From contig NZ_CP024621.1 of the NCBI RefSeq assembly GCF_009846525.1, positions 2,852,001 to 2,916,000 on the forward strand: a DNA stretch of 64,000 nt, written 5' to 3'. Below the pieces are notes generated by a model that saw only the letters and a program-made list of their open reading frames with translations, was not told the origin of the DNA and did not search any database. This document shows, piece by piece, positions 13,209 through 62,700 of the stretch. The position numbers and the translations under genes were made by a program. The stretch comes from Halomonas meridiana. GTDB taxonomy: Bacteria > Pseudomonadota > Gammaproteobacteria > Pseudomonadales > Halomonadaceae. Within the stretch, counting starts at the first letter, position 1. Every line of letters starts with the position of its first letter.

Positions 13209-15353
13209 TTACCAGCGGTACTTCACGCTGCCGATCACACTGCGAGAAGCACCGTAATAGCAGTAGAAATCGCAGCCGCTCACGTACTCTTCATCAGTGA
13301 TGTTGTTCACGTTCACCTGCGCGGTCCAGCTGTCGTTAATATCGTAGCTGGCCATGGCATCGTAGAGCGTCGTGGAAGGCACATCGCGGTTAATACCGCT
13401 GCCAGGGCTCGGAGACGTTTCACCGATATAGCGCACGCCTGCCCCAACGGAAAGCCCAGGCAAGCTGCTGCTCATATCGTAATCCAACCACGCTGACGCC
13501 ATATGGAAAGGCACCAACGGCACGCGCTCATCCTGCTGGGAATCGCTGATATCGTAGCGCGCATCGGTATAGGTGTACGCGGCGGTGAGCTGTAGATCAT
13601 CGGTGAGGTAACCCACACCTTCAATCTCCACACCCTGCGAACGACGCTCGCCAGCCTGCTCTTGCACCGGCGCACCGGTGGAAATCAGCGTGTTGTCCTC
13701 TTCCACGTCAAACACGGCAACGGTCACATAGCCATCCACATCAAACGGGGCAATTTTCACACCGGCTTCTAGCTGGCTACCTTCCAGCGGCTCATAGCTA
13801 GCACCATCCGGCCCGATACCCGCGACAGGTGTAAACGACTCGCTGTAGCTAAGGTAAGGTGAAATGCCGTTATCGCCCAGGTACATGGCCCCGGCTGTAA
13901 GTGATAGCTGCTCGTCATCGTAGCCCTGGCTGCTTCTACCGGTGACATCACTGAAGTCGTCGCTGCTATCCACGCTGTCGTAGCGTGCACCCGCGAGGAA
14001 CACCCACTTATCTGCCACGCGCAGCTGGTCCTGCACGTAAATACCGAACTGGCGGCGGTCCACATCATGCTGGGTGGGGTCGCCGGTATCCGGCGCGGTA
14101 AAGGCGGCGTAATCCGGGTTATAGAGGTCTACGGTATCCACGTTGGCGAAGAACGTAGAGCCATCGCCCAAGGTACGGAAGCTATCGCGGTTGGTGTAGT
14201 TCAGGTTCAACTCTTGATAGCCCGCGCCCACCAGCAAGGTGTTTTCCGTGTTGTCGGTGTAGGTGCGTGCAATCAAGCGGTTATCGATATTGAACGCATC
14301 GTACTCGCCGTCGCGATCAATCACGCCACGGGAAATACTGCGCGGCGGGGTAACAAACGAGTTGGGATAAACATTACGCAGCTCAAGATCTAAATGCGTA
14401 TAGCGAGCGTTCTGCTGGAACTCCCACGTATCGTTGATCTGGTGCTCAAGCTCGTAACCAATGCCTACTTGGCGCTGATCCAGACGGTCGTAATCCGGCT
14501 GGCCCAGGTTGGTCTCGGGGTCGATTTGGCCAAACGGAGAGTCGTTCAGCGTACCCAGTGCCGGGAAGAAACCGGTAGTGGGCACACCCTCATCTTTCTG
14601 CACGCTGGCTAGGAAAGTGACTGTGGTATCGTCGCTGACATCCATTTCCAGGCTAGGCGCAAAGTAGTAGCGCTCTTTCTCGCTGCCGTTAAGCTCCCCT
14701 TCTCCATCGCGATAAAGCCCGACCATGCGGTAACGCATATCGTCGCGCTCGGCCACCGGGCCAGAGACATCAATACCCACCTGACGATGCTGCTGGTTGC
14801 CCGCCTCAATTTCCAACGTGCCCTGTGGCTTGCTGGTCGGGCGCTTGCTGATGGCGTTAATCACACCGCCGGGAGGCGCTTCACCGTACAAAATAGAAGC
14901 CGGGCCTTTCAGTAAATCCACCCGCTCAACGCCAAACGTTTCATTCATCCACCAGAAGTAGCCGCCAGTGCGGAATAAACGCAGGCCATCTTGGTAGGTC
15001 GCGCTTTCCGCGCTGAAGCCACGTAAAAAGAACCAATCCGTGTTGTTGTCATCGCCGTAGGGCTGGGAAACAACGCCAGAACGATACTGGAACGTTTCGT
15101 CGTACTTATTAACGCCACGGGTTTCCAGCTCTTCCGCGCTCACGGTAGAGATCGCGCGAGGCGTTTCTACCTCGGGGGTGTCTACCTTCAACGCGGTCGC
15201 GGTGACCACGGTGGTACCGGTGTTAATGGTTTCTTCTTGGGCCAGCGCGGCCAGCGGCGCAACGCTCAGCATTCCACCGAGCGACACCACCAGTGAACGA
15301 CGAACGGCAGCAGGCAACGGCGCGACGGAAAACGGGAGAGTTTTACGGAGCAT
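13209..15353 (-). CDS. FhuA-like TonB-dependent siderophore receptor
   Basis: A 714-residue outer-membrane receptor with a signal peptide (residues 1-38, ending LAALA-Q), plug domain (FQYRSGVVSQ, FLRGFSAESATYQDGLRL, VERVDLLKGPASILYGEAPPG split here by residues) and a barrel ending VKYRW. The EEYVSGCDFYCYYGASRSVIG block near the C-terminus, with two cysteines, is typical of FhuA/FoxA/FpvA-like hydroxamate receptors. Function: import of ferric hydroxamate-type siderophores (inferred). A 72-bp array of 9-bp repeats lies 110 bases upstream. The genomic island begins about 315 bases upstream. Confidence 0.9.
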   Translation of the reverse strand: MLRKTLPFSVAPLPAAVRRSLVVSLGGMLSVAPLAALAQEETINTGTTVVTATALKVDTPEVETPRAISTVSAEELETRGVNKYDETFQYRSGVVSQPYGDDNNTDWFFLRGFSAESATYQDGLRLFRTGGYFWWMNETFGVERVDLLKGPASILYGEAPPGGVINAISKRPTSKPQGTLEIEAGNQQHRQVGIDVSGPVAERDDMRYRMVGLYRDGEGELNGSEKERYYFAPSLEMDVSDDTTVTFLASVQKDEGVPTTGFFPALGTLNDSPFGQIDPETNLGQPDYDRLDQRQVGIGYELEHQINDTWEFQQNARYTHLDLELRNVYPNSFVTPPRSISRGVIDRDGEYDAFNIDNRLIARTYTDNTENTLLVGAGYQELNLNYTNRDSFRTLGDGSTFFANVDTVDLYNPDYAAFTAPDTGDPTQHDVDRRQFGIYVQDQLRVADKWVFLAGARYDSVDSSDDFSDVTGRSSQGYDDEQLSLTAGAMYLGDNGISPYLSYSESFTPVAGIGPDGASYEPLEGSQLEAGVKIAPFDVDGYVTVAVFDVEEDNTLISTGAPVQEQAGERRSQGVEIEGVGYLTDDLQLTAAYTYTDARYDISDSQQDERVPLVPFHMASAWLDYDMSSSLPGLSVGAGVRYIGETSPSPGSGINRDVPSTTLYDAMASYDINDSWTAQVNVNNITDEEYVSGCDFYCYYGASRSVIGSVKYRW

Positions 15354-15667: not shown

Positions 15668-15713
15668 TGGTGGGCCCAGTAGGACTTGAACCTACGACCA
15701 AGGGATTATGAGT
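15668..15713. other. attL, 46-bp tRNA 3'-end copy
   Basis: Identical over 46 bases to 55814-55859, the 3' part of the tRNA gene including CCA. Identity stops in the anticodon stem at 15714, so this copy is not a tRNA gene. It marks the distal island end created by integration. Confidence 0.93.
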
Positions 15714-19999: not shown

Positions 20000-22147
20000 G
20001 TGACATCCGAATCATCTGAGCAAAATGTAAACAACAATCCAAATGAAAATGAAATTGATCGAGAACTCCCTTCTTTCTTATGGCTAGAATCGGAATTGTT
20101 GGAATATCTTGCTCAAGCCTGGGATCAGCAAGATCCGTTACATATAAAAGTCATTGGACGTTTGCAGCAAGCCGACAAAGGAAGCTTCGGTTTTCTAGAA
20201 GATCTACATCATCCAGAGACAGGCATTAGGCTCTTTTACCCACTTAAAGGCTCTAAAGTAAATCCAAATGTATTTGTTCCACCTGATGAGCTTACTGCCT
20301 TTCAGAAACAGTGGGAAAACGAGACGTACGCGCTTGCCGAGTTAGACCTTTCGCCCTTGCAAAAAAGAAAGGATCGTGACGACCCGTTTGCTTGTATTGT
20401 TCGTACCAGCACACTGGAGCCACTTAGCCACATTCCAGAAAGCTGGTGGAAAATCCACAATATTCAATCAGACCCCATGCCAATAGTACTGGCAAAAGCT
20501 CGCAAAGCCATAGAAGACCTTCTTCGACGTGAGACTTCTGAAGCTGAGGATGAACTACGCGTTCTACGTTCGGCTTTAGAATCGGCTGTTTTGGAAAAGA
20601 ATTCGCTCAACGACGAATGCAAACAGATCGACATTGAAGTGAGGCAACAAGTTAAACGTATCGCAGCTCTGGAGGCAGAGTTCGTGCAGAGGAGAAATGA
20701 ATTGGAAAAAAAATTCCGCGAGCTAGAACTTTTCCTTAAGGAGAGTGGAAAACGAATGGTCGCGCTCGACCTCGTTGACAGTTCTGATCTTGAAAAGCTG
20801 TTTCCTCCAATAAATACTCAGGATGCACGAGAAGGACACTCCTTCCAAAAGGCTCTTTCCGGCGACTTCCAGAGTTTAGCTTCGTACATTCAAGCACATC
20901 TTTGGCGTAAGGGTATTCACTACACTCGTGCGCAATTGCTTGACTACTTTACCCTATTACGCACGAATGATTTGATTGTACTAGCAGGAGATTCGGGGTC
21001 AGGTAAGACCAGCCTAGTGAAGTCTGTGGCATCCGCTATAGGTGCACGCTGCACAGTTGTGCCCGTAAAACCAAACTGGACCGGTTCGGAAGATCTTCTA
21101 GGCTACTACAACCCAATTGAGCAGCGCTATCAACCGTCACAATTCCTAGTTGCTCTGTTAGATGCTGCCCGTGAGCCGGAAATACCACATTTCATTTGCC
21201 TCGATGAGATGAATCTTGCACGTGTTGAATATTACTTTGCCGATTTTCTTAGTTTACTTGAAACTCGCGGCGAGGCGCCATGGATCCACCTATACTCAAC
21301 CTCTGAGGAACGACAAGCTATCACCGATAATAAAATTTTCCTGGCCCTTGAAGAAGAGGCCAGAAAGCGCGCTGGTCTGACTGAAGATGCCTCTTTCCAG
21401 GACATTCTAATGAATGACCAGGCCAACCTCGAGCTGCGCAGGCTAGCAGGGTTTCAAGAAGCGGATACTGTACTTAACCACCATGCGAAAATCAGACGCT
21501 CAATTTCGACTCTGATCGATACCCCAGCCGGATTCAGGTTTCCTCAAAACGTCTGGATTGTCGGTGCAATTAACGTGGACGAGACTACGCATTATCTCTC
21601 GCCAAAGATTCTCGATCGTGCGCACATCATGCGATTCCGTAATCCAGTATTAATGGATTGGGAAAAGGTTGAGCAAGAGTTAAGAGAGTTTAACTTGGAT
21701 TTGGATTTACCTGTAAGAATGCTTGCTGCTGAAATCGGCGCGCGCTCAGAATACCCTAAATTAGATCAAACCGACCCGCATGTAAAACTTCTGATCAGAC
21801 TAGCTCGAGATTACCTCGACCCTTTAGGAATCGAGTTTGGCCTTCGAGCTATCCGTCAATCACTCAACTATATCCAAAAAGGAAAAGAAGCCCAAATTAG
21901 TGCATTAGAAGCTCTTAATAACGTCGTATTACACAAAATACTTCCCAAAATTATTCTCGATGTTGAGAAACCTTCAACCAATGGAAGGAAGCGATATGAT
22001 CTTCTAATTGATTTTAGGGATGAGCTTGAAAAAACATTAGATGGCCTCGATGAAACCAAAGTAAACGAGTCTGCGATTAAGTCACTCGACGATTTGATCG
22101 CGCGCTCAGAAGTTAATAATGGCATCGCTAACTTCTGGGCTAGATAA
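20000..22147 (+). CDS. McrB-like AAA+ motor with coiled coil and N-terminal nucleic-acid-binding-like domain
   Basis: A 715-residue protein from GTG 20000 (GGGGG upstream). Residues about 45-90 (IKVIGRLQQADKGSFGFLED) look like a cold-shock/OB fold. Residues about 165-255 are a charged coiled coil. The AAA+ core has Walker A GDSGSGKT (330-337), Walker B ICLDEMNLARVEYYF (from 399), as in McrB, and sensor-region NVDETTHYLSPKILDRA (525-541). The canonical McrB GTP motif NxxD is NVDE here. With the nuclease gene 2 bases downstream it forms an McrBC-type restriction unit; layout resembles the coiled-coil nuclease tandems (CoCoNuT). Probable antiphage role (inferred). Confidence 0.8.
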   Translation: MTSESSEQNVNNNPNENEIDRELPSFLWLESELLEYLAQAWDQQDPLHIKVIGRLQQADKGSFGFLEDLHHPETGIRLFYPLKGSKVNPNVFVPPDELTAFQKQWENETYALAELDLSPLQKRKDRDDPFACIVRTSTLEPLSHIPESWWKIHNIQSDPMPIVLAKARKAIEDLLRRETSEAEDELRVLRSALESAVLEKNSLNDECKQIDIEVRQQVKRIAALEAEFVQRRNELEKKFRELELFLKESGKRMVALDLVDSSDLEKLFPPINTQDAREGHSFQKALSGDFQSLASYIQAHLWRKGIHYTRAQLLDYFTLLRTNDLIVLAGDSGSGKTSLVKSVASAIGARCTVVPVKPNWTGSEDLLGYYNPIEQRYQPSQFLVALLDAAREPEIPHFICLDEMNLARVEYYFADFLSLLETRGEAPWIHLYSTSEERQAITDNKIFLALEEEARKRAGLTEDASFQDILMNDQANLELRRLAGFQEADTVLNHHAKIRRSISTLIDTPAGFRFPQNVWIVGAINVDETTHYLSPKILDRAHIMRFRNPVLMDWEKVEQELREFNLDLDLPVRMLAAEIGARSEYPKLDQTDPHVKLLIRLARDYLDPLGIEFGLRAIRQSLNYIQKGKEAQISALEALNNVVLHKILPKIILDVEKPSTNGRKRYDLLIDFRDELEKTLDGLDETKVNESAIKSLDDLIARSEVNNGIANFWAR

Positions 22148-22149
22148 CA

Positions 22150-24681
22150 ATGCAAGATGAAATCGAAGTTCGTTATTTGATGATTGAATGGCAGTCAAAG
22201 GGCATAGCCCGGACAATCGAGGCTGCATCGGTTCCTTTAGAATTAGAACCGCTCATTGATGGGAAAATTGTTGTCGAAAGCACAATCTTCAATGATTTTC
22301 ATCCCTGGCTAGGTATTCGCCTTGGAAAAAAGCTCGATAGTCAAGTGCCGACGTTCGTAACAGCTTCAGGGCAGGCAACCCCTATGATGAGGGTTCTAGA
22401 TCCACTTGGCAGAGGATACTGGTGGCTCCGGAATGATGGTTGGGACTATGTAGGCAAGCGCCACCTAAGTGAGCTTCAACGGAGCCCAGGAACCTACAAT
22501 ATCCAAGTAGGGGATATAACGCTCCAGGTTGAAAATCGCTTATCAGCTTTTGGTCGCGCTGACATCCAAGCGTATGTTGACGACTTCCGGGGCAACTTGC
22601 TGTGGATGATTATAAACAATTGTGCCGATGCCACAGCAGCCGGTAGAGGCACTGGGCCTGGAACTGAGCTCGCTGATGCAGTAAAAGAGTTACATAATGC
22701 ATCATATAAAGTACTGGCATCCCCAGCCGTTACTATTCATGAGGGGCAGGCACAGCAACCAGTCTCAAAGGTACGTCCTAACGCCACAAGCTTTCGTGAG
22801 TATGCACGAAACCCTATAGCACGCCAATTAACAAGCAGAGTCTTTGAAAGCTCTGCGGATATAGCTGAGAACCGCTACTTACGGCACATGTTGTCAGTTT
22901 CCATTAATATATCCAAAGCCTATGTATCAGCTTCTTCACAGCAGTCTGATTTTCTTGAAAAATTGGCCACACAGGAGAGTGGGCGCGCCCAACACAACCG
23001 TGAAATGGAGGGTCGCACAGTTGACCCTGTAGTATTTGATCAACAAACAGAAGAGATTACGCGCAAGCTACATGAAATTGCAAACTTTCGGTATATAACG
23101 GATGGCAACGTTAACCCGGTTGGAGAGTTTCCAATTACTTTGAGTGGAAGATATTACGAAAAATATTCGTATTACTATGCTCCGCAGGAGAGCACAAGCC
23201 GTAATGTCGATAACAGTGTCGACTATAGAGTGGTAGTGCTACCCGCAGGCTTATTTGAACTAGTCTCGGGTATTCAACATCTCTGTAAGTCTTTCACCAT
23301 CACAGGCAGCGTAGAATCCTGTGTTCGGTATACAAATTCTGGAAAGCAATTCCGGCGAATCAAATTCAATTCCGTATATCGAGTCATACCGCAAACAGAC
23401 ATCGTAGAGAAAAGGGCAAAAAAGAGGCGAGGTTTAGAAGCAAATAATTGGTATGTTCGACTCACCAATAATGAAAAAACTGAGCTGGCACGTGAGGCAA
23501 AGACAGGTGAACGCCGCGCGCAGCAAGCTCTTAAGAAGAAGGAAGAGATTTCCTTGTCAGTGGTAGAAATTGATCAGGGAGTTCGGCAATTAGCTGAAAC
23601 TGATGCCAAATTTAGCCACCTAGGAATTCAGCAAAGTCCAACTTTTCCATTGGGTATGCGATTCACTTCCAATCCAGAATATGCAGCATGCTTATCGGCA
23701 TTTAAGAAGATTCGCAAACTCTTTGAGCGTGGCGGCTTGGACATGTCGCAATTGGAAGAAGTAACGAGCGTCGGAATTCTTCATGCTAGTGATATCTATG
23801 AGAAGTGGTGTCTGCTTAAGATATTACAGCTGCTGCAGTCCGACTTCCAGTTTAAGGCAGAACGGGGCTGGGTAGAAAAACTGGTTGCAGCTGTGCTTGG
23901 GCGCGCAACGAATGTCAAATTCGAGCTGTCACGTGACGACCTGCATATGAAAGCAATTCTAACCTGTCAGGCCGAAATGCCTTCAGGAAAACGGCCAGAT
24001 TTCATCTTAGAAATCATCAATACCAGTGATGATTTTTATTTATATAAGGGTAGTGAAAGTGGCTGCTCTATTAGCATCGTTATGGATGCTAAATTCAGGA
24101 GCAGCTGGAAACATGAGGGCCTGTCCCGCATGCTTAGCGACTTGATCCTAGTAAAAGGCTATGATCAGGCGGTCGAAAGTGGAAAAGTTTTCATCCTGCA
24201 GCCTTGCGATGGCACAGTTGCCCCTGTTGCCTCCCCCCTCGAATGGGGAGCTCACTGCGATTACGGTGGTAAGGATTCACATCATCAAGGCTGGATACAA
24301 ACTGGTGTTAAACCTTCGGGGGTGAGTTCGACAGAGCACCTCAAGCGACTCTTAGGGATGCTATTCCAAAGTGTATTTCCTGAGCCACAAGAAGTTCACA
24401 ACGAAGATGGCACAAGCAAATGGACATCCCTCAGCTTTTGCATAGGTTGCGGTGAACACCATAACGACATCATGGCAAAGAGCACGCAGAGCGGAGCAAA
24501 AAGATGGCGTCTAAACTGCAAGCTATGCGGGGTATGGACCATCAGAAACCATTGTTACCAATGCAAAACACCTTTATTTAAAAGTGGCACAGTGTGGACA
24601 TATCACCTCACTGTAGCCGATCAGGTGACAAACGTAATCTGCCCCCGATGCGGTTCCCATTTTGAGAAAGATGTTTTTTGA
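22150..24681 (+). CDS. DUF2357/McrC-like PD-(D/E)XK nuclease with C-terminal zinc ribbons
   Basis: An 843-residue partner of the preceding motor. The N-terminal half carries DUF2357-type features (AENRYLRHML; ASDIYEKWCLLK). The nuclease core reads RPDFILEI (D617) followed by VMDAKF (D646, K648), the PD-(D/E)XK arrangement of McrC. The tail has four CxxC pairs (764/767, 790/793, 802/805, 831/834), two likely zinc ribbons that may read nucleic acid or contact partners. It should cleave DNA or RNA when activated by the AAA+ motor. The gene pair is AT-rich compared with its neighbours, a sign of separate acquisition. Confidence 0.82.
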   Translation: MQDEIEVRYLMIEWQSKGIARTIEAASVPLELEPLIDGKIVVESTIFNDFHPWLGIRLGKKLDSQVPTFVTASGQATPMMRVLDPLGRGYWWLRNDGWDYVGKRHLSELQRSPGTYNIQVGDITLQVENRLSAFGRADIQAYVDDFRGNLLWMIINNCADATAAGRGTGPGTELADAVKELHNASYKVLASPAVTIHEGQAQQPVSKVRPNATSFREYARNPIARQLTSRVFESSADIAENRYLRHMLSVSINISKAYVSASSQQSDFLEKLATQESGRAQHNREMEGRTVDPVVFDQQTEEITRKLHEIANFRYITDGNVNPVGEFPITLSGRYYEKYSYYYAPQESTSRNVDNSVDYRVVVLPAGLFELVSGIQHLCKSFTITGSVESCVRYTNSGKQFRRIKFNSVYRVIPQTDIVEKRAKKRRGLEANNWYVRLTNNEKTELAREAKTGERRAQQALKKKEEISLSVVEIDQGVRQLAETDAKFSHLGIQQSPTFPLGMRFTSNPEYAACLSAFKKIRKLFERGGLDMSQLEEVTSVGILHASDIYEKWCLLKILQLLQSDFQFKAERGWVEKLVAAVLGRATNVKFELSRDDLHMKAILTCQAEMPSGKRPDFILEIINTSDDFYLYKGSESGCSISIVMDAKFRSSWKHEGLSRMLSDLILVKGYDQAVESGKVFILQPCDGTVAPVASPLEWGAHCDYGGKDSHHQGWIQTGVKPSGVSSTEHLKRLLGMLFQSVFPEPQEVHNEDGTSKWTSLSFCIGCGEHHNDIMAKSTQSGAKRWRLNCKLCGVWTIRNHCYQCKTPLFKSGTVWTYHLTVADQVTNVICPRCGSHFEKDVF

Positions 24682-25219
24682 GTAAATCTGCAAAATATTG
24701 ATACAAAAACCACCACATCAATCAGGTCGAGGTTAGCACATCAACGTTCTTATGGCGTTGGTTATAGGTGAAAGGAGTAACGAATGGCAAATTGAGCAGA
24801 TACCCACGAAACAGGGCCTTTTTGATACTATATACTTCAATATCCATGCTCCGCTTCATAGGTGATGCAATGCTCCAAGCCCCCGAGATCTTCAAACGCA
24901 GCCTCGATGACATCAAGATCGATGGATTGCCACAGCGAGATGCACCGGGCTTCGAAGATGACGTCCTTCAGGCCATCACCCTGCAGTACGCGGCCAAAGG
25001 CTATACCGCGGTGATCGTCGTCCAGGACGGTTATGTATTAGGTGTCGCGGTTCCGCAAGAAGGTGTCGAGCCCAAGCAGTACATTTTGGGACTACTAGAG
25101 CACGGTTTTCTTGAGGACGCGCTACCAGCTCTTGAAGTCATGGCCGAAATGATCGATGACCCTGAGATTCTCTACAACTATGAACCGCCCCGGTTATTCC
25201 GGAGACCGGTTTGTTTGAG

Positions 25220-26436
<1,217 letters not shown>

Positions 26437-27493: not shown

Positions 27494-30370
27494 TTACTCC
27501 CCCTCAAACTCCGAGCTGCTAAATTTCAGCACGTTGCAGTTCTCTTTGATCGTCCGCTGCAGCGCTTCATCAAACCCGTCAGAACTGGTAGCCTCAATCT
27601 CCACGGAGATCTTCACCTCTACGCCTGTTCGCAGAGTAAACTGTTCGACAATCTCATCAACGACGGTGGCAAAGTCCATTTTGGCCTTTACGGGATCAAG
27701 ACTCACCGTACCGTAAAATTGCTTCTTGGCAATATGAGTAGGAGCAGCCTCTGGCCCAGCCGAACTACCAACGCTTTCTCCAGCGCCCATAGGGTGAGCT
27801 ATTCCACTGCTTCCTACGTCTGAACCACCACCTTCATCGCTTTGGCCAGATGAGTTGTCTGTATTGCGATCAGCAAGCTCTCTGGCGCGCTGGGCAGCAT
27901 CAGCTGCGAGCTTGTCTCGGTAGGCTTTAGCAGCCTCACGCTCGATAATGAGCGCCTCACCATCTAGCCCACCAATACTCCCTTGCCCAAAGGTAAAGCC
28001 AAGATAAGTATCGCCTTCTTTTCCTGAGGCGTAGCCAAAGAAATCCTCCGATGCGACACCTTGGTTCATGGCATTTTTAAATACCTGATCGTTCACCAGG
28101 CGAGGTAGGTAAAGGTAGTGGCAGCAGTCTTGCCATACTTTCAGGGCGCTAACCTCAGTAACACCATCCTTGAAGTACCATTGGTTGAGAATATTGCGCA
28201 GGAAGATTGGCGACCATTCGTAGATCAGCCACTCTTCTTCACGCAGCTTGTTCTCAATCGTGTCTACTAAGTTCGGCGTCGTGGTCGAGACCTGAACCAC
28301 TTCCCACTCCAGCGTTGGTTTGCCTTTTACAAACTCCTCTACTGGGGCCATCAGCCACTTATAAGTCTCACGGATTAACTGCGACAGCGATGAATCTGCT
28401 GCGTCACGGCTTTGTTTGGCCTGCCGCAAGTGCGTCATATCGTGATTCAACGAACCGTTTTCAATGTCTTCTACAATCGACTTCCATGCCAAATAGGTGC
28501 GTCCCTGATCCTTCAAACGACTTACCACATCGAAATCGGCTGCCAGAAAAATCAACCGGTTCTGCTTTTGGCGTGGTTGTTCCCCACGGTTGCGCAAGAT
28601 GTCTTGCGCCGCTTGAAAGGCCTGGTTGCTCTCTGTGCGGCTATAAGCGAACTCCGTTGGCAACACCACCAAACGTGGCCCGATGCCATATTCGTCCGGC
28701 ACATCGCCAGATTGAGTAAATACATGGATGCCCGCAAAGTGGTGTTGGCGTCCCATGAGACGCGTCGTGCGGTCTTTGAGCAGCGGAATCAAAGCATCCC
28801 GTTCATGGATGTTTTGTTTGCGACTTTCCATCTCCTTTCGGAGGTTGGGCTTCGTATCAAACCAGAAGCGATCCTGTTCAGAATAGAGATAATGAAGACG
28901 GTCGCGCAGACGCTTGAGCACGTCTTCAAAAATCCCAATAGACTGACCCGGTTGAACGGCACCCAGCAAGATGCGCTCCTGCTTGATACCTCGGGCCGCC
29001 TGGGTGCTGCTGGAAGCAGCACTACCCAAAAAGATAGTACGTGCAGCACGACGGGCTGCATGCACGCCACCAAAGAGTGCAACATCATTATCAAGCGTTT
29101 GAGCAGCCGAGCGAGGCCCATCTATCTCTCGCTCAATCACCGGCTGCCAACCTCCGGGTAAATAGTGAATGCTCTTATCGCGCACATGGCTGTCTTCTAA
29201 CGGCAGCGACCCCGGCATAATTAAAGCGTCACGATTGCCCGACTCCCACAGTTTATGGATCACGAACGCCATGTACTGAAGCACCCCACGGGTGCGCTGG
29301 AATTTATCCAGCGTCGACCAATCTTCGTAAAGACGGTCGAATACTTCAGGGTGGATCGGATAAGAGCGGCAAAGTCGCTCAAAATACTCGTTAGACTGCG
29401 TCTCGTTGGGAAACTGCGCGGCGTGCTGCCGGTAGAAGTCAGAAAACTGGCGGCTGATACCTTCTATTTCGGCACGCTCACCGGCATGTTCGAACAGGCG
29501 GCGGCGAACAATCTCGAATGCCTCTTCGGTAGCCACTGGCTTCCACACTGATTCTACACGTCCAAAGTACTTCTCAAGGGCTGTCAGCGTTTGCTGGCCC
29601 ATGGTGCCGCCCACCTCAAGCTCAGACTCCGGCAACGAAGCAAGTAGGATGGCATTGGGTACCGCCTTCATTGCCTCAGTCAGCGCTTGAATGAAGCTGA
29701 TATTGCTATCGTAGGTACCTGCAGAATAGGATTTCCCTAGCTCAAACTGACGAATGTAAGCTAACAGCTCGTCTACCAGCACTACACAAGGGGCAGCTCG
29801 CTGCAGCAAGTCTACTAATACCTGTTTACCAGGCGACGTGCCTTGCTCGTGGGATTCCTTTACCAACGCCAGGCCTTCATCACCCAGCAGCTGCCACGCC
29901 AACTCACCCCATAGCGTCGTGACTTTTTGCCCTTGCTTTTTCACCGACTGCTGGCTCGGGGCCATGTTGATACCGTCGATAACGGCTACACGAGCGTGGG
30001 GCAGCTCATGGATACCAGCCTCATCAAGAATAGGTGAAATGCCATGCAGCTTATCGGTAGACGTCTTGCGAGATGCGAGGTGATAGACCGCCAGCATCGT
30101 GTGGGTTTTGCCGCCACCGAACGCTGTCTGCAACTGAATAACGGGGTCGCCACCGTTGCCAGAGAGGCGCTGGGCCACCGAAATCAGCAGCAGTCGCATA
30201 CCCTCGGTAATGTAAGTCCGCGAGAAAAACTTCTCTGCGTCTTGGTACTCTTCAGGCGCCGTGCCGGTTGCTACCTGGGTGATATCCGCAGCAAACTCCG
30301 ATTGTTTGAACAGGCCTTTTTGAACATCCTTGTGAGGCGTGGCGATATCTCTCCAGGCTTTCAATGACAT
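27494..30370 (-). CDS. DUF499-family ATPase, last gene of the nine-gene operon
   Basis: A 958-residue P-loop protein of the DUF499 family, related to PglY/BrxC-type large ATPases of phage-defence systems. The Walker A variant is [11 protein letters not shown] (around residue 81-91) and Walker B is [11 protein letters not shown] (199-209). A Gly/Ser-rich linker lies near residue 850, before a small C-terminal domain. Its ATG overlaps the upstream gene's TAA by one base (TAATG), so expression is coupled. Members occur next to DUF1156 methylases and helicases in defence loci; the step it performs is not known. Confidence 0.85.
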
Positions 30371-32799
30371 TATGACGGCTCCACGTCTTCTTCTACGATG
30401 AATTCAAGGTCATCCACTGGTTGGCCAGTAGGTGAATCTAATAGGCGTCGCCGCTGAACACGCACAGTTGAATGGCGCGTTTTCAGGGTCTTCCACTCAA
30501 TAAACTTTTCCCAGCTGCTAATAAACTGCAACTCAGGCACCTGCTCCTGAAGCGCTACTTCCAAGCCCAGCCGGGTGATGAAATAACGCCCTGTACGATT
30601 ACCCTTCATCTGGCCACCCGCCTTCAAGTTAGCGTGCTGTATCGAATCCAGATGATAGACATAGTAAGGCTGATCAGGCTTGCTTGGTTTCCACTGGGTG
30701 CCCGTCTGATGAAGTTCATTCCCTAGCAGCACTTCAATACTAACGACATTGGCCCAGCCTATAATTTTGCGCTCCAACTGATCATACAGCGCTACAGCTT
30801 TCACCTCATGCAGTGGATAGCGCGATGATTCAGGACACAGGGTATAAAATATCTGTTGTTCAAAATGATACTTAATCCTAGCATCTCGCTGCTTCTGGGG
30901 CACCAAGCCGACCATCACCATGTCTCGGTTAGACTGGCGGCGCTGCTGATAGGTACGATCATCGTAATGATAGAGCGACTCAGTGATGACCTCGCCCGGC
31001 TGCTCAAAAAGGCTATCCAGATACTCCTGAAACAGACTGTTTTTGCGAGACTTGCCTGGCTGCAGCGGTATCGCGCCAATATTGACCTGCTCGATGCTTT
31101 GATAAAAAGGGTGCGCTACAAATTCCTGTTCGTCCTCCGGATAGGGAAACAAGATCACACCACCAATGCTCTTGTTGGCCATTTTGACGGTTTTCTGCTG
31201 CTCTTTCTTGTCTTCCCACAAAATGGCGTCACGGTAGCGATGCAGCTGAGCGATGGTATCTAGTGGCGGCCCGTAGGGTGTGCTTTCAGAGCCAGTAGGA
31301 TACCCCTTTGATCCACGGTCAAAGCGATACTTGGCATCCATGATCACTTTGAACGACTTTTTATCACGACTGCTGCCGAACCCACTGCGAGAGAACTCGA
31401 TAAACTGATCTGGCTTCTGGTCGAACGTATAGGTGTAATCTTTCCTAGGAAACGTGCGGTTAAAATAGATCGCGATGTCATCACCCGTGCCCCGCTGCAC
31501 GAAATTGACGGCCGATTTCTTGCCCTTCTTGAGGCTCACCTTAAAACGGTGATGTTCCAACTTAACAATATCGTTGCTAGCCAAATCGTATTTTGGGTTC
31601 TCCCGCAGCAGCTTCACGGTCTTCAAGAAGCACCAATACTCGTAAATGGTCGCGATGTCCTTATAGTCCATCTTGAACAACGGGTGCTCGGCCATGGTCA
31701 GGCCTTTACGCAACAGCAGAAAGCGGTGATAGAACTCCTTGTACCCCGGCGCCATCGTCAGGGTAGTCGAGAAGAACATCTGATGATTAAAAGTACCCAC
31801 TTCAGCGAACATTGGACTTCTGAGGCGGCGCCGCAGGTGCGATTTGCTACGCTCCAGCGCTTTGACCTCTAGTTGAACCCGCTGGCTATCCAGGCCGCGG
31901 CCTCTATTTAAGTGGCGAACGGTACGCTGAATCTGGCGCAGGATATCGGTGATTGCCCAGGCAACGAAGCGGTTTTCTTGGGTGTCGTAACTTATGCGCT
32001 TGTGCTGCTCGGTAAGATGCGAAAGCTGCACACCGGGCGCTACCGACAGGCCACCGCCACGACAATAACGGTCTGGGCGCTGTGTCGCCGCCTTGATCGC
32101 TTGAGGTGTCGCTCGCTTCACTCGGTGAACAGGCTTCACTCTCGATTCTTTACGCAAATCCGATTTGGGTGAGCGAAGTAGCGTGTCCAAGCTCTGCTCC
32201 AAACTGTGGTAGAGCGCTTTGAACAGATTTAGCCACTCTGAAGTGAGCTGGTGGTAGGTCGAACGCGGACGCGTCGAGGCAAACGTCTTAGTAAACGCAT
32301 CGAAGGCCAGTGAGTAGAGAATTTCACTGATCTCATCCAGCATGGCCGGAAAGTCATCTTTGTAGTCCAGCTTCTGGGGAAACACCTCACTATCTAAGCC
32401 AAACAGCACCTTGCTATTTGCATCACGGATCTCAAAGCGCGTCAGCCCGACGCTATTTTCCAAGTTCGTGGTACCCGTCAAGCGTACCTGACCATGCAAC
32501 AATCTCGACCGAACCCGTTTCTGGTACACCCCATTCACATAAAGCGCTAACGGAGGTTCGCACCGGCAACTTGGCCCAGGCTCAAACAGCCACTCCAGCT
32601 GCTGCCACTCGAAAAACAGTGGCGAACTCAGCGGCTGCTCTAGCGCTGACTCCTCCGTATTGAGTGACAAGCCGTGCACGTTAAAACGGGCGCGTGTCTC
32701 AATGTGTCGCTGGGCTTCAATGGAACGCGGCAATGTCACTTCGCTCACAGCGAGCTGGCAGATAGTACCGTCAGGGTGGTCAAAACAGAGCACGGTCAT
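30370..32799 (-). CDS. DUF2357/McrC-like PD-(D/E)XK nuclease
   Basis: An 809-residue protein with DUF2357 features ([17 protein letters not shown] about 271-287; [14 protein letters not shown] about 385-398) and a PD-(D/E)XK nuclease core, KPDQFIEF (D464) then [10 protein letters not shown] (D488, K490). Unlike its homologue at 22150 it has no zinc ribbons; the C-terminus instead has an extra beta-rich domain. It follows the McrB-like gene by 6 bases and should be its nuclease partner. The cut substrate, modified DNA or something else, cannot be told. Confidence 0.82.
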
Positions 32800-32805
32800 A
32801 TCAAA

Positions 32806-35322
32806 TTAGAGCCAAAACGACGTGAAGCCGTCATCATGGAAGCGTTGTAACATAAACAGCAGCTTCTTGACGCTTCTGGGGTAGCGAGTGTTCTGCGGGT
32901 TGACCTCCTTCTCAATAACACTGTACTCAGCGTCTTCCTCGAGCGGCGTGTTGGCCAGTAAGCTTAGTAGGCCTATCATTACCTTGAGCACGCTTAGCGA
33001 GCTGCCCTGGATACGAGGCAGCACTTTCTGCATCAGCTGGAAATCCATGGCGGCGTCGGTATCAAAGCCTTCCAGGCTTTCTAACGCCTCTTCCTGATGT
33101 AGAGTAAGATAGAAAGCGACCTCGTCACGTACCCGATAGCCAAAATGCAGCCCAGCCGGTTCGAGAATACCGTTGACCTGCATTAGCATCTTCATAGAAC
33201 TGGCAAGCGCTTTTTTATGGGCATCGCTAAGATCATTCGAATTGAGAAACGGTGCCCTAAGCGCATCAGCATAGACGCCAGAAATCGGCATCACATCACG
33301 CTCTGGGTTCACCCACGCCAAATCGATATCGTTCATTTCAATGGCGTTGGCGCGGTCCAACACCTTACGACTGAATGCATGGGTAGATTCGTCCATATTC
33401 ACCGTGCCCACCACCATCAGATTCTGCGGCAGATAAACCGGGCGACCGCCATTCACATCGGCACGGCTGATCAGCGGCTCAGTGACGATAACGTCATCAC
33501 TGTCACGCTCTCGCGTCTCGATAAAGCTCAAGAATTCTGAAAAGTAGTGCTCCACACGAGCCAGGTTCATCTCATCCAGAATCACGAAGTAAAGCTCATC
33601 AGGGTGCTCAATGGCGCGTGCCATCACATCCAACAACGGCTTAGTCTCGAACTTGCCCTGGATGTTGGCATAGCCGATGAGATCGGAGCTGTCGGCCCAA
33701 TCCGGGCGCACAGCGATTAGCACACAGTGGTCAGAGTCACCATAGCCAATGGCTTTAGCAAACTGACGCACCAGCTGTGTTTTACCGGTACCCGAGATGC
33801 CCGCCAACATTGCCAATGGCTTGGTACGCATACAGAGGTAGAAATTGGCGACCTCTGCCAACGAATAATGAAAGCCCTGGCTAGCCATATAGGCCTTTAC
33901 GCGGGGCAGCCACTCGTTGGCCGAGGTTTGGGTGATCGCAACCGGTAGGCGGCGCTCCTCGGCTTCTTCAAGAGAGCTGCTTTCTTCAGTGGCCTTATCT
34001 ACTTTCTCGATTAGATCGTCGGGGGCCGGCAGCCAGCGCTGGAGTTCATCGGGCAACGCGACAGAGTGGCCATTCAGAAGAATCGCTAACGCCTCCCAGG
34101 TGAACTCGAAGAGATACCCCTGATTCCCGGTGCCATCACGATTGTAAGGACCACGTACATCAGCCAGGGCTCTTTGCAACAGCGCTTGCTTCTGCCGGAT
34201 CACTTCTATGGTGACCGGCTGCTCTAACTGAAAGAGAACCTTCAGATCGACGCGATTCCCATCACCACGCCATTCGTTATCGACGTCACCGTGATGCGGC
34301 GTAACGAAGGGCATTGACTCCGCTCGCGAGATTGCTTGAACCCCACCTGCCGCGTGGTGAACAACAATATCTCCCGGCTTAACGTTACACACGGCTTTCC
34401 AGTGGTTAAACGAGCGGCCACCCTTTCCTTCGAGCGGCGCCCACAGGTAGGCCAGGCCCTGGTCGGGATTATAGGTTTTCCCCTGCATGACATACCAAAC
34501 GCGGGGTTCATGCTGCTGCTCTGGCTCTTCTTGATCGCCTACATGGGCGCGCAACGCCTGATAGCAAGTCTGCAGCTGCAAAGCGACCTCTTCTTCCCGC
34601 GCGAACACCTCGAGCAATAGGTTAACCCGCTCCAGGTTATTCTTGGCAGCATTGGCACCAACCTCCGGCCCAGAAATGTAGGAATGTTCACCACTACCAA
34701 ACGTTTTCCACTGCCAGCCCGGCGGCGGGTGCTGCAGTGACCGGACTTCGATGCAGACGAACTCAGGATACTCACCGCTGACCTCAAAGGCCTCACCCTG
34801 ATGGGTGAAGCGGCTAACATGACTTTCCTCATCGTATTCGGCACGGATCAGAGTATCTTGAATAAAGCCAAACAGCACACGAGCATCGCTGTTATTGACC
34901 ACGAATACCGGGGCGCCGCGCTTCAGTTTGGCAAATTTCTCGCGGTTCCAGTAAAAGCGGTTCTGGTTGGCCGAGAACAGACGCTTGAAGTTTTCCTGTA
35001 CCAAAGGCGGTTTCTTCACCTCATAAACCATCACCGTCAGGTTGGTATCACCGAGCTGACGCGGGTTACTAACCACCGCAAACTCACGTTCCTTAAGCGC
35101 TTCCACAAAGGGTTCATAAAGCGCCTGTTCTAGCTCTTCTTCATCAACCCGATACTGTTTAGTCGTTGCTAATGCCTCTGCAATTAATTGCTTAGGGTCA
35201 AAGCGACGACCCTTGTACAGGCAAGAAACGCGCTCACCAGGCGGTATTGGCTGAGTGCTCGCATCGATGGTGCGGATCACATCGGTGCGCGTTAGCTGCT
35301 GAATAGCCTGCTCAATGCTCAT
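32806..35322 (-). CDS. McrB-like AAA+ protein with EVE-like reader domain
   Basis: An 838-residue protein (ATG 35322, AAGGA upstream). The N-terminal 270 residues have no family I can name. Residues about 275-375 (VWYVMQGKTY, FNHWKAVCNVKPGDIVVHH) look like an EVE/PUA-type domain, which in other proteins reads modified bases. The AAA+ core has Walker A GISGTGKT (508-515), Walker B VILDEMNLARVEHYF (from 580) and NMDESTHAFSRKVLDRA (642-658). As in the 20000 gene, NxxD is replaced by NMDE. It overlaps the previous gene by ATGA. Likely a modification-sensing motor that activates the DUF2357 nuclease. Confidence 0.83.
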   Translation of the reverse strand: MSIEQAIQQLTRTDVIRTIDASTQPIPPGERVSCLYKGRRFDPKQLIAEALATTKQYRVDEEELEQALYEPFVEALKEREFAVVSNPRQLGDTNLTVMVYEVKKPPLVQENFKRLFSANQNRFYWNREKFAKLKRGAPVFVVNNSDARVLFGFIQDTLIRAEYDEESHVSRFTHQGEAFEVSGEYPEFVCIEVRSLQHPPPGWQWKTFGSGEHSYISGPEVGANAAKNNLERVNLLLEVFAREEEVALQLQTCYQALRAHVGDQEEPEQQHEPRVWYVMQGKTYNPDQGLAYLWAPLEGKGGRSFNHWKAVCNVKPGDIVVHHAAGGVQAISRAESMPFVTPHHGDVDNEWRGDGNRVDLKVLFQLEQPVTIEVIRQKQALLQRALADVRGPYNRDGTGNQGYLFEFTWEALAILLNGHSVALPDELQRWLPAPDDLIEKVDKATEESSSLEEAEERRLPVAITQTSANEWLPRVKAYMASQGFHYSLAEVANFYLCMRTKPLAMLAGISGTGKTQLVRQFAKAIGYGDSDHCVLIAVRPDWADSSDLIGYANIQGKFETKPLLDVMARAIEHPDELYFVILDEMNLARVEHYFSEFLSFIETRERDSDDVIVTEPLISRADVNGGRPVYLPQNLMVVGTVNMDESTHAFSRKVLDRANAIEMNDIDLAWVNPERDVMPISGVYADALRAPFLNSNDLSDAHKKALASSMKMLMQVNGILEPAGLHFGYRVRDEVAFYLTLHQEEALESLEGFDTDAAMDFQLMQKVLPRIQGSSLSVLKVMIGLLSLLANTPLEEDAEYSVIEKEVNPQNTRYPRSVKKLLFMLQRFHDDGFTSFWL

Positions 35323-35915
35323 GCTTCGTTCCTTGTCACCTGGCAATCTAACCCAGCGTCTCCCGGGTTCTGCTCGTTCACGACAAACCCTTGGACTCCA
35401 TAGGGCGCCAGAGCAGTCTCCATTTTTGACCGCAAACGAGTCGCCAAACGTTTGAAGTCTCGCTGATTCCAGGTCAGCAATAAAACAACCTTAAGCGTTG
35501 ACGCTTGTGGCCAAACGATGTGAAAACTTGCTAGCTCAGGATCACCTTCCCGCTGGGCGACGGTGAGCGCCGCCAGGGTATCGCGGAGCTTTTCCTCGAC
35601 TTCATCAACGATAAATGGCTTGCGTCGTGCCACCTGCACCTTTGGCTTAAGCCCTTGTTGCTCAACCCACTGCCTGGCCTGGATAACCTCACCTGGGTCC
35701 GCCCCTGAGAGCCGCGGACGGTTTTCTGGCTCGTAGCCTTCGCAATCTTTGACTTCGACCCACCAGTGGGTGGGGCCACCATTGTGGGCCAGTATATCCA
35801 CTCCCTTAAGGCGACTCTTCATCCGCTGGCGATACCAGGAACTGTCATCGTATTTAGCCAGCTGCCAGCCCTCGGGAAAGCGGAAGGTCAGTTGGCCCTC
35901 TGTCACTTCAGGCAT
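35319..35915 (-). CDS. small PD-(D/E)XK-like protein
   Basis: A 198-residue protein of no family I recognise. I chose ATG 35915, overlapping the ATPase gene by 8 bases. KGVDILAHNG (D40) followed by THWWVEVKDCEGY (E54, K56) fits the PD-(D/E)XK nuclease core, as in many small restriction-type or VRR-like enzymes. The rest is alpha/beta with strands FHIVWPQ and LKVVLLLTWN. It sits between an OLD/RecF-like ATPase and the McrB-like gene; an ATPase-nuclease pairing is plausible. The nuclease call rests on three residues. Confidence 0.55.
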   Translation of the reverse strand: MPEVTEGQLTFRFPEGWQLAKYDDSSWYRQRMKSRLKGVDILAHNGGPTHWWVEVKDCEGYEPENRPRLSGADPGEVIQARQWVEQQGLKPKVQVARRKPFIVDEVEEKLRDTLAALTVAQREGDPELASFHIVWPQASTLKVVLLLTWNQRDFKRLATRLRSKMETALAPYGVQGFVVNEQNPGDAGLDCQVTRNEA

Positions 35916-36957
35916 TGACCAGCTCCATCTCACGGTCGTATTGGGCCAACTCCTCATCAAGACTCACCAGATGCTCCAAGCCGCTGAGGCGGTCGGCCAC
36001 CTCGATACGTTCAACCAACCCATCACCACGAACCAGAGCAAAGTAACGCTGCGCCACTGCCTGCTGGCGAGTGAGGAGATCAAGCTCCTTGAGCAAGAAA
36101 TAGCTGTGGGTGGCAATCACCACCTGAATGCCCTGCTGGCTGAGCGTTACGGCTGCCAAAGCCACCAGCTTGATAAGTTTGGGGTTGAGATTGGCCTCCG
36201 GTTCATCCCAGAACAGGTAGCCCTTATCCAGCAACGAGCCGGTGGTGATCAAGCGGGCGAGCATCGCCAGCTTACGCAGCCCTTCTGCCACCAACGGCAT
36301 TTCCAGGTTGCCTTGCCCAGGAATACGCAGATAGAAGCGCCCATTCTTGTCCAACACCACCTTGCCGCCCATCGCCTCTTCCAAGGGTGCCACCAGCTCG
36401 GCGACCGTCTTTTCGCGACTGCCCTTGACGGCAGGGGCACCCAGCAGCTTGCACAGGTCGATATGGTGCTCTTCGATATCCACGTGCCGGTTTTCGTAGA
36501 GCGGCAACAGCCAATGGTATTGGCTTAACAGTTCGCGTGTCGGCATAAAGACCGGCGCCTTCTCCTGCCAGGCGCTGGGTAAGCGGTCGATCTTAACCTC
36601 AGTCTGTGAACGGGTGCTGAAGCTGAAAGCGGTATCCAGCACAGCCTGCTCAAAGGCGACGGAGACCCTACAGGTCTGCGCCCCCTGGCGGCGGCTAGCC
36701 AGCCGCCCCAGAGACTCAGGCCGAAACACCTTGATCAGCTTGTCGGCAATGCCCTTCTGAAGCAGCGACTTGGTGGGGTCGGCTACGCTCGGCTCATTAG
36801 CCTGCTCGTAAGCGTTAGCGATGACGCTGTAAGCCACCTTGAGCAGATGCGATTTGCCGGTACCATTTTCGCCCACAATAACGTTTAGCCCCGGCGCGAA
36901 ATCCAGTCGCGCCTTGGGAAAAAGCGTGAAGTTATCCAGTTCTAACCGCTTCAGCAT
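35908..36957 (-). CDS. RecF/OLD-like AAA ATPase
   Basis: A 349-residue ABC-type ATPase of the AAA_15/AAA_21 kind: LKRLELDNFTLF at the start, Walker A GENGTGKS (29-36), the signature region LVAEGLRKLAML, and Walker B LFWDEPEANLNPKL followed by VIATHSYFLLKEL (switch). Similar ATPases act with small nucleases in OLD/Gabija-, Septu- and retron-type defence. It begins 9 bases after the DUF1156 gene stop and overlaps the small PD-(D/E)XK-like gene, its most likely partner. Confidence 0.8.
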   Translation of the reverse strand: MLKRLELDNFTLFPKARLDFAPGLNVIVGENGTGKSHLLKVAYSVIANAYEQANEPSVADPTKSLLQKGIADKLIKVFRPESLGRLASRRQGAQTCRVSVAFEQAVLDTAFSFSTRSQTEVKIDRLPSAWQEKAPVFMPTRELLSQYHWLLPLYENRHVDIEEHHIDLCKLLGAPAVKGSREKTVAELVAPLEEAMGGKVVLDKNGRFYLRIPGQGNLEMPLVAEGLRKLAMLARLITTGSLLDKGYLFWDEPEANLNPKLIKLVALAAVTLSQQGIQVVIATHSYFLLKELDLLTRQQAVAQRYFALVRGDGLVERIEVADRLSGLEHLVSLDEELAQYDREMELVNA

Positions 36958-36965
36958 GCTGCCTC

Positions 36966-39776: not shown

Positions 39777-39785
39777 CGGTATTCC

Positions 39786-40430
39786 TTATCCGCTCACCCG
39801 GCACAACGTGTGCCGAATGGCAGTAACAAACGGGAGGTGTTCAATAGCATCAAGCTCTTCATCGAGCAGCGCTTGCCACTCTTCATCAGAAAATTCGTCA
39901 ACTAACGACCAAAGTTCTTCAGCAGTGTCTATGTAACCAGCCTTAGCGGCCTTTCGCATTCGGCGCAAAGCACCGTGCTCAGCATCCAGGTTAAACACCC
40001 GCAGGGTTTCTTCTGCCCTGCACTGTTGCTCAGCATTGAGCCATTGCCGTGGATAAATCGTTCCGTCAGGAACAAATACAAAAAAATCATCAGGATCATC
40101 AATATCAGGTTTTAGTAGGTCAGCCGCATGGTAATCCCCTGCGTCATGATCCTTGTGCTTACCGCAGGTCTCTTTACGGTCACACGAGCCAAAGAGATTG
40201 TCCCACTGAAACGTCACGCGCGGGTCTCGACCTTTCTGAACAAAATGTTCTACATGACGCCGACCTTGCTGAATCTCTGCCTCACAGTAGGCACAGCGGT
40301 TTCCCTGCATGGCTTCAAGTGCCAACCAGAGCTCAGCGCGGTCGTTGTTGTTCAGGTCGCGCCAGTTATCTCGGCCATGCTGGTAGTTTTTTAGGCAACC
40401 AGGCGCGTGGCCACGGGTGAGAAAGTGCAT
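39786..40430 (-). CDS. ptuB: PtuB-like HNH endonuclease (Septu)
   Basis: A 214-residue HNH nuclease of the TIGR02646/PtuB kind. The zinc/HNH core shows CAYCEAEI (C46, C49), RRHVEHFVQKG (59-63 motif HVEHF) and NLFGSCDRKETCGKHKD. In Septu, PtuB is the effector nuclease held by the PtuA ATPase. It follows ptuA by 2 bases and precedes the DUF1156 gene by 9. The same family serves retron Eco7 (Ec78), but no reverse transcriptase is present here. Confidence 0.87.
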   Translation of the reverse strand: MHFLTRGHAPGCLKNYQHGRDNWRDLNNNDRAELWLALEAMQGNRCAYCEAEIQQGRRHVEHFVQKGRDPRVTFQWDNLFGSCDRKETCGKHKDHDAGDYHAADLLKPDIDDPDDFFVFVPDGTIYPRQWLNAEQQCRAEETLRVFNLDAEHGALRRMRKAAKAGYIDTAEELWSLVDEFSDEEWQALLDEELDAIEHLPFVTAIRHTLCRVSG

Positions 40431-40432
40431 CC

Positions 40433-45414: not shown

Positions 45415-45477
45415 GCAGCTCCCTCCGCAAGTCGGCTTTTGCCGTTTCTTCATTTATCGTCGATCTGGGCCAGCTGG

Positions 45478-54587: not shown

Positions 54588-54896
54588 ATGGCCAGATCGC
54601 TAATAAAACCAGAGCAGGTAGCAGAGCAGTTGGGTATGAGCCTGAGCTGGGTATACGAGCACAAGCAAGACATCGGATTCGTTCAATTTGGGAGCGCTGT
54701 GCGCTTTGATCAGCAAGAGGTTGAGGAGTACGCTAGGAACTGCAGGCGCGGTCCTCAGCGTAAGGAGGATCGAAAATGGGATACACCGTCTCACAAAGGA
54801 AAGATCGAGGCACGTGGATCGTCCGCGCCAGGATCAACGGCCAGCGTACTCAGCGAACTTTTCAAACAGAAGGAGAAGCGAGGCAATACGCATTAA
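54588..54896 (+). CDS. xis: HTH_17 excisionase-like protein
   Basis: Start ATG 54588 with GAGG upstream; the longer frame from 54525 is less likely. Residues about 5-55 are a MerR/excisionase-type HTH (PEQVAEQLGMSLSWVYEHKQD, VRFDQQEVEEYAR). The tail is basic and low in structure, and overlaps the integrase gene by 121 bases in another frame, so only the HTH may matter. Position before the integrase suggests the directionality factor. Confidence 0.72.
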   Translation: MARSLIKPEQVAEQLGMSLSWVYEHKQDIGFVQFGSAVRFDQQEVEEYARNCRRGPQRKEDRKWDTPSHKGKIEARGSSAPGSTASVLSELFKQKEKRGNTH

Positions 54897-55774
54897 AGGC
54901 AGAGGCTCAACGCCAAGAAGATGAATTCAATGGGGTCATGGGCCGCAAGCCCAAATACACCTTTTCAGAGGGACTGCAGCGAATGGTCAGCGAATATGAC
55001 GTTCGTTCTCAGAAGCAGCACATCCTATTGGTCGCTAGGTGGATGGATGAGCATGCTCCAGGCGTCATCATCGGCCAGGAACTGCTAGACGCGGCGCGTA
55101 GAATGCAGAAGGCTCTGAAAGAAAAGGGATTGGCACAGTCGACCATCAACAACCGCATACAGGCCGTCAAGCGAGTGCTCTCGCTATCGTATCGCGAATG
55201 GGATTGGATCGACTTGCCACTCGACGGAAAGCTACGTAAGCCCTCGCCTAAAAACGAGCGCCACGTTTATCTCTCTGAACTGGAACTTGCTGAGCTGCTG
55301 GAAGCCGTACCCGAGCGGTATCAGGTCGAACGGAAAGTAATTTTGTTAGCCATGCTAACAGGCATGCGGCGCGGTGAGCTGATGGCACTGGAACCGAGGA
55401 ATGTTTACAACGGCCGGATTGTCCTCAAACCACACCAAACGAAAAACGGCAAACCGAGGGTCATCCCGCTTTCCGAAGAAGCGATACCGCTGCTTGAAAG
55501 CTTACCGTTTGATACAACGGGGGATAGAGTTAGGGGAGCATTTGAAAGGGCTAGGGAAGCAATCGGTCGTCCAGATATCCGTTTTCACGATATGCGACAT
55601 TGCTATGCCTCATTACTAGCTAGCAAAGGAGAGTCACTAACGAGTATCAGGGATTTGCTGGGACATTCATCGCTGACTGTAACAAGCCGATATGCCCATG
55701 CTGATCCAACAAGATGGGATAGTGTGGTTGCCAGATTGCCGCGCATTAGCAACCAAATGGCAACCAAGCACTGA
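54776..55774 (+). CDS. int: tyrosine-type site-specific integrase
   Basis: A 332-residue phage-type integrase. AAGGAGG upstream supports ATG 54776. An N-terminal arm-binding domain (VSQRKDRGTWIVRARINGQ) is followed by a SAM-like core-binding domain (about 65-155) and the catalytic domain: LTGMRRGELMAL (Arg I), HDMRHCYASLLA (H-x-x-R), LLGHSSLTVTSRYAH (His and nucleophile Tyr). It ends 40 bases from the tRNA gene, the usual arrangement for its att site. Confidence 0.95.
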   Translation: MGYTVSQRKDRGTWIVRARINGQRTQRTFQTEGEARQYALKAEAQRQEDEFNGVMGRKPKYTFSEGLQRMVSEYDVRSQKQHILLVARWMDEHAPGVIIGQELLDAARRMQKALKEKGLAQSTINNRIQAVKRVLSLSYREWDWIDLPLDGKLRKPSPKNERHVYLSELELAELLEAVPERYQVERKVILLAMLTGMRRGELMALEPRNVYNGRIVLKPHQTKNGKPRVIPLSEEAIPLLESLPFDTTGDRVRGAFERAREAIGRPDIRFHDMRHCYASLLASKGESLTSIRDLLGHSSLTVTSRYAHADPTRWDSVVARLPRISNQMATKH

Positions 55775-55813: not shown

Positions 55814-55890
<77 letters not shown>

Positions 55891-60433: not shown

Positions 60434-60459
60434 AGCATCAGATAACCAAAGAGAGTGCG

Positions 60460-62441: not shown

Positions 62442-62485
62442 ATGACTCTCCGGTAAAACGCTATGCCTAAATGATTCTCGCCGCT

Positions 62486-62504
62486 GATAATAACGATTCT
62501 CAAA
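62486..62504 (-). promoter_or_regulatory. candidate Fur box of the second iron operon
   Basis: GATAATAACGATTCTCAAA matches the Fur consensus at 11 of 19 positions with a full GATAAT arm; a second partial arm (ATGATTCTC) lies just left at 62471. It is about 45-60 bases before the binding-protein start. Confidence 0.5.
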
Positions 62505-62700
62505 AGCACTTGCACCCATATTCCAACGAATCTCCCGTTGCATGTCCCGCAACGCTGGGTGGAACGGCACACGTCGGCTTCAAATCCTACGGGCAGATCA
62601 ACGTCTCTCTGTCGGCAATCGTTCCATTAATAGCAACGCCATGTTCGATAAAACCATCTCGCAAGTGGGAACTTTTCTTCTTAGAATCCGCAGCTCATTT

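Follow-up and report, generated by a model that had tools for sequence, protein, structure and literature searches.

The tandem of an McrB-like AAA+ protein and a DUF2357 nuclease found in a 64,000-nucleotide stretch of the Halomonas meridiana genome (the window) raises the question of whether such a pair is an ordinary McrBC system, a member of the coiled-coil nuclease tandems (CoCoNuTs) or a new CoCoNuT subtype, and of which nucleic acid it would act upon. CoCoNuTs were described in 2024 and are defined by computation (Bell et al., eLife, PMC11090510). An earlier note on this DNA had pointed to a coiled-coil McrB and a DUF2357 nuclease at 20000-24681 (forward strand), and two intact ORFs are indeed present there. 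Very probably, they constitute an intact Type I-A CoCoNuT of two genes, a restriction system of McrBC-like (Type IV-like) kind that rides on a tRNA-Met island as a passenger defense module. The genes are as follows:

20000..22147, forward strand: cnuB, GTG start, 715 aa, McrB-like AAA+ protein and putative GTPase
22150..24681, forward strand: cnuC, ATG start, 843 aa, McrC-like partner

The spacing between cnuB and cnuC is 2 nt, and the sequence GGGGG stands upstream of cnuB at a normal distance. Both products have full-length matches in PADLOC-DB (CnuB to PDC-M26A, E 1.9e-285; CnuC to PDC-M26B, E 0). PDC-M26A/PDC-M26B is a phage-defense candidate catalogued by PADLOC in 2023, for which PADLOC states no mechanism, and a literature search for PDC-M26 found no papers. 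Just 3' of cnuC lies a 160-aa ORF (24768-25250, forward strand) with no family match.

The AAA+ core that had been noticed in CnuB is borne out by Pfam (AAA_5 at residues 326-423, E 1.4e-8) and by an AlphaFold2 model of moderate quality (mean pLDDT 76.7, pTM 0.57), plasmid rows having been excluded from the input alignments for both CnuB and CnuC. In this model, the core (283-682) aligns with E. coli McrB (6ut6_D: Z 14.9, 3.1 A, 181 residues; 6hz4_E: Z 14.2), and many other AAA+ proteins match it as well. Walker A reads GDSGSGKT (330-337) and Walker B HFICLDEMN (397-405), and the signature GAINVDE (522-528) has the form N-x-D followed by E, that is, NxD and not NxxD. A shortened NxD motif characterizes the CoCoNuT branch, within which Type I-A is recognized by additional helices inserted between Walker B and NxD (PMC11090510). 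The model of CnuB places such an insert at helices 434-507. The gap from Walker B to the N of the signature is 116 aa long in CnuB and 115-116 aa in each of its 23 close relatives, which range from alphaproteobacteria to plasmid forms of Klebsiella and E. coli; in E. coli K-12 McrB it is 47 aa, and among the other NxD homologues 42-74 aa.

Ahead of the core, residues 162-255 are modeled as a single unbroken helix of 94 residues, in line with the coiled coil of about 90 residues that had been proposed. Across the CnuB family, the hydrophobic periodicity in residues 168-245 is about 3.5-3.55 residues, a value reached by 27 of 5000 shuffles; taken by itself, the window sequence gives no significant periodicity (798 of 5000). 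The modeled helix and the family periodicity together support a coiled coil in CnuB. The model shows one module of about 110 aa in front of the long helix, with nothing in between. Residues 49-134 of this module are predicted to have the beta-beta-beta-alpha-beta-beta order of strands and helix seen in OB folds, and we call the N-terminal domain (approximately 45-135) OB-like from this predicted topology alone. A fold search aimed at the N-terminus returned a list filled by AAA+ matches. Of the cold-shock/OB-like N-terminus named in the earlier note, the OB-like part thus agrees with the model, whereas the cold-shock identity finds no support in sequence, since the family profile ranks CspA ninth among 501 when set against its own shuffles and the module has no Pfam match at E 10.

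The layout of CnuC was examined on a second AlphaFold2 model of moderate quality (pLDDT 77.6, pTM 0.74). Published Type I-A CnuC proteins consist of an Ig-like N-terminus, a DUF2357 region with a coiled-coil/OB insert, a nuclease and a zinc tail (PMC11090510), and the model reproduces this order. Residues 1-135 form an Ig-like beta sandwich with many Ig and filamin matches of modest Z (5.1-5.8), and the DUF2357 helices are interrupted by coiled-coil helices 239-311 and 417-490, between which an OB fold (321-418) is inserted. The insert resembles single-stranded DNA-binding protein (E. coli SSB, probability 0.99, E 0.05; M. pneumoniae SSB 2hql, Z 5.3), and nearly all its top Foldseek OB matches are SSB proteins. 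Pfam detects PDDEXK_7 (E 4.9e-5) and, weakly, DUF2357 (E 0.007), and the CnuC profile found no match to solved structures at E up to 0.5. The PD-(D/E)xK domain spans approximately 545-742 (P616 D617 ... D646 A K648), and the zinc tail carries CxxC pairs at 764, 790, 802 and 831. The core and the four pairs had both been read from the sequence earlier, and both hold across the family: RPD615-617, DAK646-648 and all eight cysteines show no variation among 21 homologues. Judged from these residues, the active center of CnuC is intact.

Could the pair nevertheless be an ordinary McrBC of the NxxD branch, cutting methylated DNA and bearing an unrelated helical N-terminus? CnuB is homologous to E. 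coli McrB (6hz4, E 2.7e-4), the whole CnuC model matches E. coli McrC (6ut6_G, Z 8.5) and part of it T. gammatolerans McrC (6ut5_G, Z 8.5), and the intact nuclease motif has the same DAK form as that of K-12 McrC. The nuclease domain of CnuC also matches Can2 (Z 7.7-8.1). Against these resemblances stand the NxD signature, the Ig-like N-terminus, the DUF2357 insert and the zinc tail of CnuC, and Pfam searches of both proteins found no modified-base reader domain. A YTH/EVE-like domain, in particular, is absent from the CnuB model and has no Pfam match in CnuB. Membership of the ordinary McrBC family was rejected on the NxD signature and the insert of CnuB, and we regard it as highly improbable; the CoCoNuT likeness that had been suggested is supported by the NxD signature and the N-terminal helix or coiled coil of CnuB, together with the Type I-A insert and the layout of CnuC.

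The earlier note had further raised the possibility of a new subtype, defined by the OB domain of CnuB and a double zinc-ribbon tail on CnuC. In its favor, the window protein has four invariant CxxC pairs, only one of which is CPxC, while the zinc tail described in the literature consists of three CPxC motifs (PMC11090510), and the clade to which CnuB belongs, with 24 members, stands separate in the tree. However, a cold-shock-like OB domain in CnuB and zinc ribbons in CnuC are already listed for Type I-A (PMC11090510), and the four CxxC pairs do not set the window locus apart, because homologues on E. coli and Klebsiella plasmids have them too. Because CnuB has the insert by which Type I-A is defined and PADLOC already includes the family, the new subtype was rejected, and there is very little chance that it is correct. 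The cnuBC pair adds an intact member to Type I-A and provides a good further example of a kind already known. The assignment was made by comparison with the published description of Type I-A (reference proteins ROR86958.1 and APL73566.1).

Phylogeny agrees with this placement in its main outline. In the tree, the window CnuB clusters with its 23 relatives (83/98), and the reference Type II/III loci fall separately (83/84); these loci were picked by their partner genes, namely UPF1-like helicases, a helicase-MTES_1575 nuclease fusion and a PLD nuclease. Types II and III have been reported to branch from within Type I-A (PMC11090510), a branching order that was not reproduced in our tree, which has few sequences, long branches and unsure deep branches. 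No gene for CnuH, the UPF1-like helicase present in reference loci L056, L060 and L065, was found at the window locus, and no third conserved neighbor (helicase, CnuA) accompanies cnuBC in the loci examined. Conversely, none of the Type II/III reference CnuC proteins examined has the PD...DxK motif.

Relatives of cnuBC were found in alpha-, beta- and gammaproteobacteria. The nearest CnuB relatives occur in Pseudomonas and Aromatoleum (67-74%), followed by Comamonas, Sphingomonadales, Rhizobiales and others, and plasmid forms, mostly from Klebsiella, lie at 34-44%; the plasmid-type form is present in 39 of 5426 E. coli genomes. Within the genus, full-length PDC-M26B was detected in only 2 of about 37 genomes searched. 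Searches of viral contigs with CnuB and of phages with CnuC returned no relatives. Elsewhere, cnuBC has Type I restriction, DISARM-like DrmD and Dnd genes as neighbors, and in related Pseudomonas loci it is adjoined by BREX genes and by RadC/DUF932 genes like those of the window. In Comamonas testosteroni SWCO2, an NxD pair that groups with the Type II-like locus L065 (L041:17719-22079, reverse strand) lies a few kb from a Type I-A-like cnuBC, placing two CoCoNuT types side by side.

A congener (G370) offers a direct comparison. Its homology to the window amounts to 77% over 4.6 kb and is confined to 20087-24671, ending before the 160-aa ORF; cnuB and cnuC alone are common to the two genomes, in different settings. 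That the shared segment comprises this pair only and breaks off at the gene ends supports the pair as a complete unit. Both genes are under purifying selection (dN/dS 0.11 for CnuB and 0.15 for CnuC), and these ratios, together with a gene layout conserved from alpha- to gammaproteobacteria, argue against a chance arrangement. From these data, we infer that cnuBC is a complete, mobile and sparsely distributed unit that is kept functional. The 46-bp attachment sequence described below also occurs in this congener, at a tRNA-Met copy and as a distant exact copy (G370:C1:195702-195747 and 2471426-2471502).

In the window, cnuBC is held by an integrative island at tRNA-Met (15668-55859, 40.1 kb), with a GC content of 51.4% inside and 58-61% outside, which is delimited by the following features:

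15668..15713, no strand: left attachment repeat of 46 bp, exact copy of the tRNA-Met end; left island end
54776..55774, forward strand: island tyrosine integrase (Phage_integrase, E 5.6e-21), adjoining tRNA-Met
55814..55859, no strand: right attachment repeat of 46 bp, inside tRNA-Met (55814-55890); right island end

Besides cnuBC, the island contains HmaA, HmaB, HmaC, PtuA/PtuB (Septu), a HEC-02-like pair and a second NxD McrBC pair. CoCoNuT islands usually sit in mobile elements (PMC12458937), and the tRNA-Met setting of cnuBC agrees with this remark. The Hma system (HmaC, HmaB, HmaA) occupies 27494-45453 on the reverse strand, and the intervals between its genes house Septu PtuA/PtuB (39786-41866) and the HEC-02-like pair (35319-36957). 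Also on the reverse strand, between HmaC and HmaB, lies the second McrBC-like pair (30370-35346), whose NxD signature is GTVNMDE with a gap of 52 and without the long insert, and whose DUF2357 and PDDEXK_7 domains score well above cut-off. PADLOC matches the McrB of this pair over the AAA+ part only (PDC-M26A, 171 bits), and this McrB was found in none of the other genomes of the order (294 genomes, E 1e-40); the pair fits the methyltransferase-associated NxD class (PMC11090510). RadC, YqaJ, ERF and DUF932 genes are present in the island as well, RadC and DUF932 being common to Pseudomonas loci L032-L034. A TonB-dependent receptor (13209-15353) lies to the left of the island and iron-type ABC transporter genes (58506-62570) to its right, and a siderophore-uptake locus was probably interrupted when the island inserted.

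By analogy with McrBC, CnuB would assemble through its AAA+ domain into a nucleotide-hydrolyzing ring, presumably using GTP and translocating. Recognition of foreign or aberrant nucleic acid of single-stranded character would fall to the OB-like domain and long helix of CnuB and to the arm-borne OB fold of CnuC. CnuC would dock through DUF2357 and stimulate hydrolysis at the NxD site, its PD-(D/E)xK center would cut the bound nucleic acid, and its zinc tail may help in substrate binding. The domain order, the intact catalytic motifs, the two-gene unit, its conservation and its island setting are seen in the sequence or the models, whereas ring assembly, use of GTP, translocation and cleavage are carried over from McrBC. 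On this scheme, cnuBC would serve in defense, a role favored by its neighbors here or in relatives (Hma, Septu, BREX, Type I restriction and Dnd genes).

Which nucleic acid the pair would cut is a separate question, on which the earlier note had mentioned action on RNA. One possible mechanism, to which we give rather less than an even chance, is RNA-targeting abortive infection, in which CnuB and CnuC would recognize RNA or stalled translation and cleave RNA. Cold-shock-like OB domains are as a rule RNA-binding, which favors RNA as the target; PD-(D/E)xK nucleases, on the other hand, are DNA-specific as a rule, and no HEPN or other RNase gene accompanies the cnuBC loci examined. The OB fold of CnuC, moreover, resembles SSB and not an RNA-binding protein, even if OB folds are hard to tell apart and too alike for a fold search to settle the ligand of CnuC. 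RNA targeting has been proposed for CoCoNuTs in general, and is considered ancestral by its authors, as a hypothesis (PMC11090510). Given the intact nuclease motif, an SSB-like insert and no RNase gene alongside, cleavage of DNA by the Type I-A pair, perhaps of single-stranded or replicating DNA, is at least as plausible as cleavage of RNA. In the strict form of this reading, the substrate that Type I-A CoCoNuTs detect and cleave would be phage DNA, single-stranded or in replication, and not RNA. It derives from the SSB-like OB fold that the coiled-coil arm of CnuC carries ahead of an intact PD-(D/E)xK nuclease, and we put it forward only tentatively, as a doubtful proposal. If true, the DNA reading would revise the proposed RNA targeting for the CoCoNuT subtype that retains an active McrC nuclease. 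The cnuBC pair provides a compact and intact two-gene example of a system for which our literature search found no laboratory test, including any phage-defense test of a Type I-A CoCoNuT, and its Klebsiella and E. coli plasmid homologues make the choice between RNA and DNA testable in standard strains.

Among known systems, the window pair is closest in layout to Type I-A CoCoNuTs, with which it shares the two genes, the NxD motif, the helical insert behind Walker B and the N-terminus of CnuB with its long helix and predicted OB-like module, as well as the succession of Ig-like domain, interrupted DUF2357, PD-(D/E)xK nuclease and zinc tail in CnuC; it departs from the published description in having four CxxC motifs (one of them CPxC) in place of three CPxC motifs. 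No differences were detected from PADLOC PDC-M26, which both proteins match over their whole length. Type II/III CoCoNuTs (L056, L059, L060, L065) likewise combine an NxD AAA+ protein with a DUF2357 protein, but add genes for a UPF1-like helicase and/or other partner nucleases that the window pair lacks. E. coli K-12 McrBC resembles the pair in its McrB-like AAA+ core, its McrC-like partner and its D...DAK nuclease motif, whereas K-12 McrB has NxxD (NTAD) and neither the insert nor an OB/coiled-coil arm, and K-12 McrC, at 348 aa, is devoid of the Ig-like domain and the zinc tail of the 843-aa CnuC.
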